Of a stretch of DNA of 49,525 bases, positions 20,526-25,478 are shown in pieces. Each line of letters starts with the position of its first letter. Within the stretch, counting starts at the first letter, position 1. The notes under the pieces are model-generated. The model saw only the letters and a program-made list of their open reading frames with translations, had not been told where the DNA came from and made no database searches. The DNA is from Verrucomicrobiota bacterium (GTDB lineage Bacteria; Verrucomicrobiota; Verrucomicrobiia; Chthoniobacterales; Terrimicrobiaceae), in NCBI GenBank assembly GCA_026398275.1, contig JAPLTF010000029.1, forward strand, positions 1 to 49,525, given 5' to 3'. The position numbers and the translations under genes were made by a program.

Positions 20526-22124
20526 ATGCCATTACCAAAAGTGCTCGTAGCTGATCCGATCTCCCAACGTGGCGTCGAAGAACTCGCCGCCGGCGGCTCC
20601 CTAGAAGTTGTCGTGAACACCGGGCTCAAGGAAGCCGAACTCATCGCGATCATCCCGAAATTCTCGGCCCTCGTCGTCCGCAGCCAGACGAAGGTGACCG
20701 CCGCCGTGCTCGACGCCGCGAAAAAGTTGAAGGTCGTCGGCCGCGCCGGTGTCGGGGTGGACAATGTGGATGTGGACGCCGCGACCCGCCACGGGGTCAT
20801 CGTGATGAACACGCCGGGCGGCAATACGATCTCGACTGCCGAGCATGCGTTTTCGCTCCTCATGAGCATCGCCCGCAGCATCCCACAGGCGGATGCCAGC
20901 GTGAAGGCCGGCAAGTGGGACCGCAAAAAGTATGAGGGCGTCGAGCTTTACAACAAGACGCTCGGCATCCTGGGAATGGGCCGGATCGGCACCGAGCTCG
21001 CCCGCCGCGCGATCGCCTTCGGCATGCGCGTCGTCGCCTACGATCCGTATCTCTCGGTCAGCCGCGCCCGCAGCCTTCAGGTCGAGCTCGTGGAAGACCT
21101 CGATGCGCTCGTGCCACAGGCGGATTTTATCACGATGCACATGCCGCTCACTGACGAGACCCGCCACATGCTCGACGCCCGCCGGCTGGCGCTCTGCAAA
21201 AAAGGCGTGCGGATCGTGAACTGCGCACGCGGCGGACTCATCGACGAGGCCGCGCTCGGCGAAGCCCTCAAATCCGGCCATGTGGCCGCCGCAGCCCTTG
21301 ACGTTTACGAGGTCGAGCCTCCTCCGGCTGAGTTCGCGCTGCGTTCGCTCCCGAACATCGTCTTCACTCCGCACCTCGGCGCCAGCACGGCCGAAGCCCA
21401 GGAAAACGTGGGCATCGAAATCGCGCAGGCGATCCGTGCCGCCCTCCTCGAAGGGGAGATCCGCAACGCCGTCAACATGCCGAGCATCGACGCCAAGACC
21501 GCGGCCGTCGTGAAGCCGTACCTCACGCTCGGAGACAAACTCGGACGCTTCGCCGCCCAGCTCGCGCCAAAGCGCAACGACCGGATCGTCATCACCTATG
21601 GCGGAAAAGCCGTCGAGATGCCGACCGAGGCGATCAGCCGCGCGATCCTCACCGGGTTTTTGAAAAATGCCGGAGGCGAGGAGGTCAACAGCGTCAACGT
21701 CCGCACAATGGCCGTCACGCTCGGACTCAATGTCGAGGAGATCCGCTCGAGCGAGCAGACCGACTTCAACGAATGGCTCCACGTCGCCGTCTTCAGCGGA
21801 GAAAACAAGATCTCGATCGGCGGAACATTTTTCGGCGCGAAGAACGACCCCCGCATCGTCCGGGTCAACGGCCGCCCGGTCGAGGTCACGCCCTCCGGTG
21901 TCGTCCTGCTCCTCGAGAACAAGGACCGCCCCGGCATCGTCGGCCACATCGGAACCCTCCTCGGCAAGGAGAACATCAACATCGCCAGCATGAGCCTCTC
22001 CCGCACCGAACAGGGCGGCAGCGCACTCACCCTCCTCAACCTCGACAGCCTTCCGGACGCCGCCGTCCTCGCACGCCTCGCCGCCGACGACGACATCATC
22101 ACCGCCCAGGTCATCTCGCTGTAG
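20526..22124 (+). CDS. serA: D-3-phosphoglycerate dehydrogenase
   Basis: Catalyses the first step of serine synthesis, oxidising 3-phosphoglycerate with NAD+. The 532-residue type-1 enzyme has the Rossmann motif GILGMGRIG (147-155), catalytic Arg in NCARGGLID (232-240), Glu in the DVYEVEP region (259-265) and His in TPHLGAS (281-287). The intervening allosteric-substrate-binding domain and a C-terminal ACT domain (about 455-532, with NKDRPGIVGHIG) are both present, so feedback by serine is likely. The stop is 10 bp before the restriction gene, a different compositional region. Confidence 0.96.
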   Translation: MPLPKVLVADPISQRGVEELAAGGSLEVVVNTGLKEAELIAIIPKFSALVVRSQTKVTAAVLDAAKKLKVVGRAGVGVDNVDVDAATRHGVIVMNTPGGNTISTAEHAFSLLMSIARSIPQADASVKAGKWDRKKYEGVELYNKTLGILGMGRIGTELARRAIAFGMRVVAYDPYLSVSRARSLQVELVEDLDALVPQADFITMHMPLTDETRHMLDARRLALCKKGVRIVNCARGGLIDEAALGEALKSGHVAAAALDVYEVEPPPAEFALRSLPNIVFTPHLGASTAEAQENVGIEIAQAIRAALLEGEIRNAVNMPSIDAKTAAVVKPYLTLGDKLGRFAAQLAPKRNDRIVITYGGKAVEMPTEAISRAILTGFLKNAGGEEVNSVNVRTMAVTLGLNVEEIRSSEQTDFNEWLHVAVFSGENKISIGGTFFGAKNDPRIVRVNGRPVEVTPSGVVLLLENKDRPGIVGHIGTLLGKENINIASMSLSRTEQGGSALTLLNLDSLPDAAVLARLAADDDIITAQVISL

Positions 22125-22134
22125 AGAAATCACA

Positions 22135-22779
22135 ATGGTTGAAGTTCAAAGTCACGGATTCACATTTGAAAAGTGGGTTCGTGATGCCCTATTTGAGGGA
22201 TATACCGGCAATTACATGCAGAAATGGGACATCCCTCCGGAACTCAATCGCCACGAACTTATCCCTCCGGACTTACGGAACATCCCGGTATCGGTAAAGA
22301 CCGCAAAATATGGTTCGCCGATTGCTTTGGGCGATGTTCTCAGGCAGCGAAGCATTGACGAACCATTTCTGCTGATCGCTGGTTTCTGGAAACAACGCAC
22401 CCCTTCGGAAAAATGGTTCGAAGACATCGGATGGGTGAAATTTACTCCTGCCGTATGGGGCCCACTATGGGGAACACTGAGTCTGAGCCAAATCACCGAG
22501 ATTGATCGGATCGTGAAAAATCAAGAGGGACTCTATTCTGTCGTCCGAGCACAAGCCCAAGAGTGGAAAACCCGCGTGGCGTCCAGCTCAGGCAGCCGAA
22601 TTGTCGTCAATCCCAAAATTGATTCCAAGAAACAGAGACGCATCCAGTGTTCACTCCCTTTCCAAATATTTTGGAATGCTGTTGGACGAAATGCGCAGAT
22701 TCACGAAAGCCCTCTGTTATTCGGCATTCCTTTTGATAACCCTGTGATTTCGTCATCGCGGTCGTTTAGCCAAGGCTGA
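22135..22779 (+). CDS. probable type II restriction endonuclease of the R-M cassette
   Basis: The 214-residue protein is not confidently matched to a known family. It is called a restriction enzyme because it is paired, tail to tail with a 14-bp overlap, with a DNA methyltransferase and shares its lower GC (26 of 60 G+C in 22141-22200). A possible PD-(D/E)XK-like segment is PPDLRNIPVSVK followed by TAKYGSPIALGDVLRQR (about residues 43-72), though the usual acidic residue before x-K reads Ser. FLLIAGFWKQRTP follows as a likely core strand. Start ATG 22135 is the first in the frame. Function is inference from context. Confidence 0.5.
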   Translation: MVEVQSHGFTFEKWVRDALFEGYTGNYMQKWDIPPELNRHELIPPDLRNIPVSVKTAKYGSPIALGDVLRQRSIDEPFLLIAGFWKQRTPSEKWFEDIGWVKFTPAVWGPLWGTLSLSQITEIDRIVKNQEGLYSVVRAQAQEWKTRVASSSGSRIVVNPKIDSKKQRRIQCSLPFQIFWNAVGRNAQIHESPLLFGIPFDNPVISSSRSFSQG

Positions 22780-23830
22780 ATTCTGGGGAAGCAAGGATTC
22801 GCGCCATTCTCTTTTTTGTGATCTCGCAGTAGTCGGGGTTGAGTTCGATGCCAGTCCATTGTCTGCCCAGTTCCTCGGCGGCTGCCGCAGTGGTCCCACT
22901 TCCAAGAAACGGGTCGAGCACGGCATCTCCCTTCCGGCTGCTCGAGAGAATAAGTTGCTGGATGAGTGCGATGGGCTTTTGCGAGGGATGCCCGATCTTT
23001 TCCTTCGAGGAGCCTTTCAAAGAAGGGATACGCAGGATATTCGTAGCATACTTGCCTTTCCTGAGATGCAGCTCCCGAGCGTCCTTGTCTTTGTATCGCT
23101 TGTCCTTGAGATACGACTGGATTTTCTCCTCTTCATAAGGAAGCCGCACGGCATCCTTGTCAAAGTATGGCGTTGAATTAGCCGAATGACGGAGTGCAAG
23201 GACCATTTCGTATTGAGGCGTGAATGAATCGTAGCGTTCGTTGTATCCTACAGCCCTGTCCCAGACGATCATGTCGTGAAATTGCATCTCTTTCGCCAGC
23301 ATCGCGCAGGTGTGCAGCCAAACATGCTCCCTCTTCCCGAGCTGGCCGAAGACGTAGAGGAGGCCGTCGGGGCGAAGAACTCTTTTGCATTCGCGCACCC
23401 ATTTAAGAGTCCATTCCAGATAATCATCAGGCGATTTCCAAGTGTTGTCCCAACTTTCCTCCAATAGAACCTGGAAGTATGGCGGATCAGCGATGATCAG
23501 CTGGAACTTGCGGTCACCAAGTTTCGGGAGAACTTCCAGCGCGTCTCCAATAATGATTTCACCATTTCCAACCGTGGTTTTGTCCAAGTGCGACGTGTGA
23601 TACATAGGCGCATCTTCCATTACTATTGCGCGCGCGCAACCTTTTTCTGTCGGGCGGCCTTTATTTTTTCTTCCATGTCGAATAAAATGTGCAAGATCAG
23701 ATTCTTGAATGAGGTGGTCTCTTCCCCTTTTTTCCGCAGGAATTCGGCCATCTTTGATCAGCTTTCTGACTCTCGCCTTGCTGACCCCAAGATAAGTTGC
23801 AGCAGCCTCTGTCGTAAAATGGTCTCGCAT
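22766..23830 (-). CDS. site-specific DNA methyltransferase (N6-adenine or N4-cytosine) with N-terminal helix-turn-helix
   Basis: Transfers methyl from S-adenosylmethionine to DNA and should protect host sites from the neighbouring endonuclease. From ATG 23830 the product has about 354 residues. Residues 4-50 are an excisionase/MerR-like helix-turn-helix (FTTEAAATYLGVSKARVRKL), motif IV is DPPY (115-118) and motif I is DPFLGSGTT (about 306-314). The IV-then-I order marks the beta class, and DPPY favours adenine. The fused HTH may bind DNA or autoregulate the operon. A TTG two codons upstream (23836) is an alternative start. Lower GC than its neighbours and isolation from metabolic operons suggest horizontal acquisition. 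Confidence 0.88.
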   Translation of the reverse strand: MRDHFTTEAAATYLGVSKARVRKLIKDGRIPAEKRGRDHLIQESDLAHFIRHGRKNKGRPTEKGCARAIVMEDAPMYHTSHLDKTTVGNGEIIIGDALEVLPKLGDRKFQLIIADPPYFQVLLEESWDNTWKSPDDYLEWTLKWVRECKRVLRPDGLLYVFGQLGKREHVWLHTCAMLAKEMQFHDMIVWDRAVGYNERYDSFTPQYEMVLALRHSANSTPYFDKDAVRLPYEEEKIQSYLKDKRYKDKDARELHLRKGKYATNILRIPSLKGSSKEKIGHPSQKPIALIQQLILSSSRKGDAVLDPFLGSGTTAAAAEELGRQWTGIELNPDYCEITKKRMARILASPEFSLG

Positions 23831-23842
23831 GCGCAATGTTTA

Positions 23843-23934
23843 TTAACGGTCGCCCTTCTTGCCTGCAAGATCGAACTGATCCCACAAGCGCGGGACAAAC
23901 TCGAACCGGATCGTCGTCTTCCGGAAGCAGTGAT
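23843..23934 (-). pseudogene. possible C-terminal gene fragment upstream of the methyltransferase
   Basis: One frame gives about 30 protein-like residues (RKTTIRFEFVPRLWDQF then DLAGKKGDR) ending in a double stop TAATAA, about 12 nt before the methyltransferase ATG. An in-frame TGA lies immediately upstream and no start codon precedes the conserved-looking part. It is therefore at most a fragment, perhaps cut off when the R-M cassette or the neighbouring repeat arrived. It may be a chance frame. Confidence 0.2.
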
Positions 23935-23942
23935 CAGGTCAG

Positions 23943-24091
23943 GTGTGATGAAATGTGGGTGAGGTTGAAAGGTTCGTGCGCGGGTGGATCGCGACCTCCG
24001 GGCGCGATGGGAAGAAGTGGCGGCGAAACCGCGTAGGTGCAGGGTGCGAGTCAAAGCGCCCGATCCGCCGCCCCCACATTTGATCACACCC
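23943..24091 (-). mobile_element. MITE-like element, copy 2, with flanking 11-bp direct repeat
   Basis: A 149-bp non-coding element. Its ends GTGTGATGAAATGTGGG and CCCCACATTTGATCACAC are near-perfect inverted repeats. The 11-bp sequence GATCAGGTCAG stands directly on both sides (23932-23942 and 24092-24102), as expected for a target-site duplication. The right copy contains the stop codon of the GNAT gene, so insertion happened at that gene's 3' end without changing its protein. The interior shares GCCCGGAGGTC (reverse orientation) with copies 1 and 3. It encodes no transposase, so it would depend on one elsewhere. Confidence 0.8.
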
Positions 24092-24093
24092 GA

Positions 24094-24786
24094 TCAGGTC
24101 AGCTGCTTGATCGCGGTCGTTAGGTAGACGGCCTCGGGGTGCTTGCCGCGGTATTTTGTGATCTCCTTTTTCTCGATCACGCGGAATCCGAACCGCTCGA
24201 GAACCTTGGCCCCGCGGCGGGATTCGAAAGTGACCATCTGGCCGAAGACCGCCTTCTCCCCGCGCGACTTGAGGTAGTCGAAGTAGGCGTTCAGCATCAC
24301 ATGCGTCCCGGCGATGCTCTGCGCCTCGGGGAGGACGTTGAAATGGAAGTGGGCGGTTTTTCTGGGTGCGGCCGGGACCTCGCGCCAGGAGTTCTTCAGG
24401 ATCCAGTGGATGAATTCCCGTGTGGCCGGATTGTAGCGGCGGTATCGCGCGAGGCCGGTGGCAAATAGGCTGAGGTTGTGGAAGAAGCTGTGCCACTGCT
24501 GGCGCAGCGGGCGCCGCGAGCCGAGCAGGTAGCCTTTCACCACGCCGTCCTGTTCGAGGACAAAAGCGGATTCGGGCTCGATGTCGGTGTAGTAGGCCGT
24601 GAGATAGTCCGCGAAGAGTTCGCGGTCCTCGAAGATCGGATCGATCGGCTTGCCCAGGAACCCGGTCTCGCAACAAAGCCGGCGGACGGCACCGCGGTCG
24701 CGGGGTTCGTAATGTCGGATCGAAATTCCAGAGGGCAGGGCCACGGCCCATTTTGTAGGCGGGAATCCCGTTTTCGACAAGTTCAA
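24094..24786 (-). CDS. GNAT-like acetyltransferase
   Basis: The 230-residue protein starts a GNAT-like beta-alpha fold at GISIRHYEPRDRGAVRRLCC (residues 19-38). It has the central VVKGYLLGSRRP strand and ends with GAKVLERFGFRVIEKKEITKYRG, the usual last strand-helix-strand of the fold. The acetyl-CoA P-loop (R/QxxGxG/A) is not clear, so the acyl donor and substrate are open. The gene stands alone, divergent from the small membrane protein gene. Its stop codon lies inside the direct repeat flanking the MITE-like element. Confidence 0.65.
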   Translation of the reverse strand: MNLSKTGFPPTKWAVALPSGISIRHYEPRDRGAVRRLCCETGFLGKPIDPIFEDRELFADYLTAYYTDIEPESAFVLEQDGVVKGYLLGSRRPLRQQWHSFFHNLSLFATGLARYRRYNPATREFIHWILKNSWREVPAAPRKTAHFHFNVLPEAQSIAGTHVMLNAYFDYLKSRGEKAVFGQMVTFESRRGAKVLERFGFRVIEKKEITKYRGKHPEAVYLTTAIKQLT

Positions 24787-24899
24787 CCGCCGCGGGTCCC
24801 GGTCGAGTCGCTGCTTTTCATGTGGTCCAGGCTCTGCTAGTATGCTCGGTTAATCTGCTGCTTCTGAACTCTCAAAGCCATAACGAAGGACACGCCGGC

Positions 24900-25478
24900 A
24901 TGGCGGGGCCCGCGAAAAACCGGCGGGCAAACATTCGCGGAGTGCTCTCGGCCGAGGCGCTTGCGGCCATCGGGGCATGCGTTGTTCTGGTCGTTCTCGT
25001 GGCGCTGACCATGCGGGACAAAAAGCCGCGCTTCCGCTTCGATCCCACGCCGACTCCAGCGCCCGCCGCAACCGCGCCGCCGGGCTCCGCCTCGGCAACG
25101 CCGGTTTCTGCGCCGGATTTGGATGCCCTGTTTGTCCAGGGCCGGGCGGAGAGCCAGCTCATCGCCCCGGTGGGCGAGCCGCTCAGCCCCCCCTTTGTCC
25201 CGAATACCGATTACGCAAAACCACCGCTCTATCGCGAGATCCGGGAAACCGACCTGAGCGGGATGTATGCGAGCGCACCCAAGAAGGACAAGCGGGCGAT
25301 CGGCAAGGTCGCGAAGCTCGGCGGCTTCGGCACGCCGGAGGCCATGGCCCGGGCGTTCGGCTATCCGTCGGTGGATCAGATGATTTGGAGTTGGGACCAG
25401 ACGATCGCCACCACCCCGCAGTTTCAAGCCGGCAATTTCGGCACCAACTCCGCGCCCCCGCTTCCCTGGCAGGATTAG
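24900..25478 (+). CDS. hypothetical single-pass membrane protein
   Basis: A 192-residue protein with a basic N-terminus (GPAKNRRANIRG), one membrane helix (AALGACVVLVVLVAL-like, about residues 20-40), a Pro/Thr/Ala linker and an exported or cytosolic tail. The C-terminal ~80 residues contain KLGGFGTPEAMARAFGYPS and VDQMIWSWDQTI, which look conserved but match no family I know. The start at 24900 fits the basic-then-hydrophobic pattern. The frame is open further upstream. Its stop is adjacent to that of the convergent thiol protein gene. Confidence 0.6.
   Translation: MAGPAKNRRANIRGVLSAEALAAIGACVVLVVLVALTMRDKKPRFRFDPTPTPAPAATAPPGSASATPVSAPDLDALFVQGRAESQLIAPVGEPLSPPFVPNTDYAKPPLYREIRETDLSGMYASAPKKDKRAIGKVAKLGGFGTPEAMARAFGYPSVDQMIWSWDQTIATTPQFQAGNFGTNSAPPLPWQD

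Follow-up and report, generated by a model that had tools for sequence, protein, structure and literature searches.

Two convergent genes of low GC content lie beside serA in the 49,525 nucleotides of contig JAPLTF010000029.1 of a Verrucomicrobiota bacterium that were analysed here (the window). They raise the question of what their products do, at which DNA site these would act, and how relatives of one of them exist elsewhere without the other. An earlier note, made from the sequence alone, had described the pair as a restriction-modification (R-M) cassette with an unrecognised endonuclease (here called R) and a methyltransferase carrying a helix-turn-helix (HTH) domain (M). Our analysis makes it likely that positions 22125-23836 are an acquired type II R-M cassette acting at GTAC, and that exported kin of its nuclease live with DNA purged of this site. 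Neither the exported relatives nor the GTAC depletion had been foreseen in the earlier note.

The predicted nuclease

The PADLOC model of type II restriction endonucleases (REases) PDLC03460 (REase_II) matched residues 2-174 of R at 1.9e-9, so the endonuclease can no longer be called unrecognised. The same model matched 62 of the 66 aligned members of the R family, the best match (8e-50) being on a phage relative. R also belonged by match to PHROG 6892, a family of unknown function (7.2e-15; cyanophage relatives up to 7e-104). Searches of Pfam and NCBIfam gave no match for R, the 66 alignment members had only scattered weak Pfam matches (best 0.0047), and no match of the 214-residue protein to a non-nuclease family was found.

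Structure prediction, which the earlier note had recommended, gave an AlphaFold2 model with a mean predicted local distance difference test (pLDDT) score of 95.9, and the 50 structures listed for it by VIA-align were all PD-(D/E)XK enzymes (restriction enzymes, MutH and the resolvase Hjc). The best structural match in BFVD was A7RBT9, which we take to be a chlorovirus accession (298 aa, template modelling score 0.84, 24% identity). E12 and D32 were invariant in 160 of 160 relatives, and K55 was present in 159, the exception being a truncated row. Position 53 was Ser in 78 of 80 viral relatives and Asn in 76 of 80 bacterial ones, so that the classic Asp...(D/E)-x-K triad is lacking in nearly all members of the family; the invariant E12 may take the place of the missing acidic residue. 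The Ser that the earlier note had read in the PD-(D/E)XK-like segment is real (D32...S53-V-K55), but it is no peculiarity of this protein, since nearly all viral relatives share it. Together, the PDLC03460 match, the conserved residues and the VIA-align matches make a PD-(D/E)XK-type nuclease the most probable reading of R. Two points tell against this assignment: the best listed VIA-align match, NhoI, had a Z score of 7.5 (root-mean-square deviation 3.1, 116 aligned), which, being below 8, proves nothing alone, and Foldseek of the R model against the PDB gave no match at 1e-3. Querying the PDB by sequence, with R and with its profile, yielded nothing better than E values of 0.34 and 0.48.

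MspI (N-x-K) and HinP1I (Q-x-K) were considered as relatives and dropped, because neither was among the 50 structures listed and a review (PMC4081073) puts the N of MspI at the lysine position.

Probably exported and viral relatives

R relatives were collected as 80 bacterial and 80 viral loci, kept from 99 and 86 confirmed relatives, with one genome per species in the bacterial scan (genomes and loci are numbered with G and L below). A match to R was present in 20 of the 387 Verrucomicrobiota genomes searched, the window's own included and one of them weakly (5e-4), and in 28 phage records; none was found in the plasmids searched, and a viral scan with the single R sequence gave none. The titles of 76 of the 80 bacterial loci named Verrucomicrobiota or a subgroup, those of L059 and L116 other phyla, and those of L075 and L106 only "bacterium".

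R of the window begins MVEVQSHG and no in-frame start exists upstream of 22135, which makes it leaderless. In all 79 bacterial loci with enough upstream sequence, an in-frame start was found 15-70 codons upstream of the EVQxHG motif, and the 30 codons before the motif encoded a strongly hydrophobic stretch in 77 of 79 (4 and 6 of 79 in the shifted frames, none of 79 when the opposite strand was read). The end of the leader directly abuts the start of the nuclease, as in Sec signal peptides, and from this we infer that the bacterial relatives are exported by a Sec-type leader. Viral relatives have their closest in-frame start only 1-2 codons ahead of E3 in 77 of 80 loci, and 8 codons ahead of it in 3; the phage records that were read annotate the protein as hypothetical.

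No M relative was detected near the exported R in any of the 80 bacterial loci (E <= 1e-3, flanks of up to 6 kb, shorter at contig ends; the search was for M relatives and did not extend to unrelated methyltransferases), and R of the window was the only bacterial copy of full length seen to lack a leader and to lie next to M. Bacterial R copies match their surroundings in composition (mean GC difference to the flanks -0.005, 61 loci), and tRNA-Ala(ggc) directly precedes R in 10 of 10 Verrucomicrobiaceae-type loci checked (L070, L071, L072, L088, L090, L091, L095, L096, L105 and L112), which had been picked because their upstream reading looked tRNA-like. The composition and the tRNA context make the bacterial copies look long resident. 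A conserved neighbourhood of the exported R was not found, the largest cluster besides R and its antisense reading occurring in 22 of 80 loci. In L078 the R reading frame stops after 43 residues. In the R tree the window protein branched off basally in the bacterial clade, without resolution there, and a leader may have been either lost or originally absent.

M was found elsewhere in many of these genomes. With a threshold of E <= 1e-90 in the 387-genome set, M orthologues occurred in 8 genomes, 6 of which also had R (interrupted by a stop in G190); M was thus present in 6 of 20 R genomes vs 2 of 367 R-less genomes (Fisher 2e-7). An M orthologue was present in 33 of the 80 exported-R genomes (20/50 + 13/30), never near R. 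Among 58 relative genomes, 9 had M, the window's own included, and in 8 of these R was present, whole or in part, the exception being G429. These genome sets overlap partly, and assembly gaps may hide M genes. M without R was seen in G187, G199 and G429. The genus of G190 (L038) has two other species with M and no R.

M relatives were present in 17 of 85 viral R loci, and four of the five frames read had SPPY, an m4C-like motif. Among larger virus records, 3 of 16 matched M at 1e-6, and we claim no general phage partner. In L157 (4944-6443; same sequence in L158) a phage relative of R and a type II methyltransferase of another kind (PDLC03255, 1.1e-57) lie in convergent orientation, which reads as another pairing of the same nuclease; this locus had 1 GTAC vs 20.4 expected.

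GTAC in bacterial carriers

When the 136 tetramers were ranked in sampled bacterial DNA, GTAC was the most depleted of all in R-carrying loci. For 47 loci R was present and no M was detected; these contained 33 GTAC where 685 were expected (observed/expected ratio, O/E, 0.05), with zero in 40 of them, and distant places in five R-without-M genomes had 8 where 233 were expected. In the carrier genome G140, 40 kb of sampled DNA were free of GTAC. Both R and M were found for 33 loci, which had 200 GTAC against 445 expected (O/E 0.45), and 17 non-carriers had 598 against 725 (O/E 0.83, rank 5). The median O/E was 0.00 for 5 R-only genomes and 0.77 for the 17 non-carriers (G313 and G125, with samples <6 kb, left out). 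The window's own genome had 15 GTAC against 176 expected (O/E 0.09). CTAG was also low in R-carrying bacteria (0.41 without M).

The share of tyrosine encoded by TAC after a G-ending codon vs after other codons was 4.5% vs 73.8% in R-carrying DNA without M, 26.2% vs 64.4% with R and M, 58.2% vs 56.2% in non-carriers and 3.8% vs 72.2% in the window's own genome. Because tyrosine shifts to TAT only after G, these values argue for selection on GTAC at synonymous sites. On the R tree (79 rows), 40 rows without M were depleted and 6 were not, whereas 29 rows with M were not depleted and 4 were. The greater retention of GTAC in genomes with M would be explained if M methylates GTAC.

GTAC in cyanophages and viral loci

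Eight cyanophages with R were compared with 10 without it, using 80 kb of each, checked presence of R, and 16 palindromes. GTAC showed the largest difference between carriers and non-carriers (O/E 0.24 vs 0.58, one-sided p 0.0034). The carriers S-SM1 and Syn1 had zero GTAC in 80 kb; P-HM1 had 71 and MED4-213 had 80, and P-HM2, which is of the same genus as P-HM1 and lacks R, had 203. The 71 viral R loci of at least 5 kb, some of them near copies, held 405 GTAC vs 1958 expected from base composition; the O/E was <=0.1 in 23 of them and reached 0.7 in none.

GGCC was rejected as the target, being second in phages (0.19 vs 0.36) but near expectation in bacteria, and the phage contrasts of six-base palindromes and gapped five-base words were weaker than that of GTAC. 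CCGG was almost absent from most of the 18 cyanophage samples (L329-L400), with or without R.

The methyltransferase

M matched PF01555 (N6_N4_Mtase) at 2.5e-52 over residues 110-340, with DPPY followed by DPFLGSGTT; in beta-class enzymes DPPY precedes the FxGxG segment that binds S-adenosylmethionine. Its best relative of solved structure was M.RsrI (2.5e-37), and the CcrM model matched at 1e-31, far under that model's cut-off. M shares PF01555 and DPPY with these enzymes but differs by a fused N-terminal domain, which HTH_17 (3.6e-12) and TIGR01764 excise (8e-11) matched, bearing out the excisionase-like HTH of the earlier note. RsrI recognises GAATTC, unlike the GTAC proposed for M. Among the M orthologues listed, the HTH region was matched only in the window, G389 and G455. 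The domain probably binds DNA, perhaps the control region of M itself, and may serve as the controller suggested in the earlier note.

Organisation and borders of the cassette

The features of the cassette are collected in Table 1.

Table 1. Positions of the cassette, its proteins and its flanks in the window
Feature	Position	Strand	Description
R gene	22135..22779	+	214 aa; open reading frame coordinates
R protein	22135..22779	+	leaderless PD-(D/E)XK-type endonuclease (predicted), PDLC03460 / PHROG 6892 family
Proposed active-site stretch	22168..22299	+	E12 (22168), D32 (22228), S53 (22291), K55 (22297); putative catalytic role
M gene	22766..23830	-	354 aa; ATG start, alternative TTG at 23836
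M protein	22766..23830	-	predicted DNA methyltransferase of m6A type; HTH at the N terminus
HTH_17 / excisionase-like domain of M	23675..23818	-	residues 5-52
R/M convergent overlap	22766..22779	.	14 bp, takes in both stop codons; open reading frame coordinates
Left edge of cassette, at serA stop codon	22122..22134	.	end of same-genus DNA identity
Inverted-repeat (MITE-like) element, right flank	23931..24101	.	34-nt arms; a neighbour, cassette membership not claimed

The convergent arrangement and its overlap, between serA and an inverted repeat, were as first described. The left neighbour serA, with the domains of phosphoglycerate dehydrogenase, ends at 22124, and the DNA identity of the window to same-genus genomes stops at 22123 in three of three genomes. 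Only the left edge of an empty site is thus conserved: the gene that follows the cassette in the window was not found beside serA in these three genomes. GC content drops from about 0.62 to 0.51-0.54 across 22001-24000. The values for the genes (GC and GC at third codon positions, GC3) are 0.489 and 0.500 for R and 0.510 and 0.559 for M, and GC3 of five neighbouring genes is 0.749-0.874, which bears out the difference in composition remarked on earlier.

In G389, of the same genus, an M 75% identical and with the same HTH (GC 0.47) is convergent with an R fragment (residues 107-213) and has different neighbours (L224, 4936-6250); this pair is a decayed copy of the cassette at another chromosomal place. 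The foreign composition and the second chromosomal site support lateral acquisition of R and M as a moving cassette.

The arms of the inverted repeat (23931-23964 and 24068-24101, 34 nt) are 79% complementary, and the 181-bp stretch 23925-24105 has 21 matches in its own genome including itself, mostly partial, the only full-length one being itself; to call it an element like a miniature inverted-repeat transposable element (MITE) is fair. The genes at 24094-24786 and 24822-25475, to the right of the cassette, had no Pfam match at 1e-3.

Discussion

We propose that R of the window cuts unmodified GTAC and that M would methylate the adenine, giving GTm6AC, so that R spares its own DNA. Elsewhere the R family would act without a linked M, in exported form in Verrucomicrobiota and leaderless in T4-like cyanophages, and the damage to the cell's own DNA would there be limited by export, by genomic loss of GTAC, or by both; roughly two in five bacterial genomes with exported R carry an unlinked M. 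A wider proposal, which we put forward tentatively and hold to be slightly less probable than its negation, is that many Verrucomicrobiota export a GTAC-specific restriction endonuclease for which self is marked by a GTAC-purged chromosome and not by methylation. Outside the cytoplasm the enzyme would destroy incoming or environmental DNA and the DNA of kin would pass, and the window would contain the same nuclease in an intracellular, leaderless form paired with an HTH-methyltransferase as a mobile R-M cassette. The role of the exported enzyme may be a barrier to incoming DNA, an attack on phages, or scavenging.

A shared target of R and M may be indicated by a depletion of GTAC that goes with the presence of R and is less marked where M occurs, yet is clustered on the tree, and several observations go against the GTAC assignment. 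M presence and depletion cluster on the R tree such that supported branches yield five independent pairs, for which the contrast ran on average in the same direction in 1.8 and in the opposite one in 0.2, too few for significance. Depletion was found without R in the same-genus genomes G387 (0.25) and G388 (0.04), which have neither R nor M found, in G429 (M and no R; 0 GTAC against 26 expected) and in the non-carrier G048 (0.27), and G313 and G125 had zero GTAC in samples <6 kb. The window's genome is depleted although M is present, so this depletion is probably older than the cassette, and some genomes with R and M (G091, G271, G417) are as depleted as R-only ones. Conversely, carriers without detected M keep GTAC (15 in L045, 8 in L114, 5 in L086). 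In the cyanophages an equally large shift for any palindrome arose in 78 of 5000 label permutations (family-wise), and the ranges overlap, the non-carrier syn9 (0.27) lying below the carriers S-SSM5 (0.47) and ACG-2014f (0.59). With few independent contrasts and depleted genomes lacking a detected R, a lineage effect may be behind the depletion: it would then be an old trait left by other or lost R-M systems and not the doing of this R, and the specificity of the pair would be unassigned. Lost R-M systems are described as leaving traces at other sites (PMC4687349), and G387, G388 and G429 may owe their depletion to a GTAC system that is older or escaped detection. Non-carrier Opitutaceae gave no useful comparison, G010 offering 2.9 kb, in which no GTAC is expected. 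We nevertheless regard this explanation as unlikely, given that GTAC ranks first in cyanophages and bacteria alike, that P-HM1 and P-HM2 differ nearly threefold within one genus, and that depletion is weaker where M is present.

A stronger competitor, though still one we would not favour, is that the exported relatives are scavenging nucleases with a nutritional role, export alone protecting the cell and the depletion coming from leakage into the cytoplasm. Their near-universal leaders, the lack of a widely shared neighbourhood and their resident composition fit it, but a scavenger has no need of four-base specificity, and depletion goes almost to zero; for the window itself this explanation is compatible with a GTAC-acting R-M cassette. 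It is very improbable that R of the window has decayed and become inactive, leaving M as a solitary methyltransferase. The full-length M beside an R fragment in G389 and the three genomes with M and no R speak for this, whereas R of the window is full length, has kept the conserved residues and gave a confident model. Against these alternatives, a GTAC-specific cassette with exported kin that lack a linked partner is the reading that we prefer.

Among known systems, PDLC03460 has R's match and most of the family in its favour; its 298 positions include about 84 extra N-terminal ones compared with R, and its source enzymes are unnamed, so specificity is not given by the match. The model may describe chlorovirus-type REases. 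M.CviQI of chlorella virus NY-2A makes GTm6AC (PMC4357717). PMC7019647 describes chlorovirus REases as packaged without methyltransferases and thought to degrade host DNA, and their R and M genes as always adjacent. Chloroviruses thus resemble the present family in having virus-encoded R-M with short sites and differ in that adjacency. PHROG 6892 differs from the window in that most of the phage records looked at showed no M-type partner. In Helicobacter pylori, HpyAXII is a GTAC R-M system that, going by a title cited in PMC12707154, limits how much exogenous DNA is taken up; it is likened to the window pair by that title only. Literature searches on a secreted restriction enzyme, on GTAC avoidance and on a GTAC enzyme of Verrucomicrobiota or cyanophages gave nothing relevant among the matches listed, most subscription papers lying outside the search.

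For the window's own R-M system the analysis provides a four-base prediction, and for PHROG 6892, the cyanophage family, it proposes a function, that of a GTAC endonuclease. Type II restriction enzymes are generally taken to depend on a modification enzyme that works alongside them in the cell. If our reading is true, an exported R family without a linked partner, in cells whose DNA is nearly free of GTAC, would be another solution to telling self from non-self, in which the signal lies in the genome sequence.
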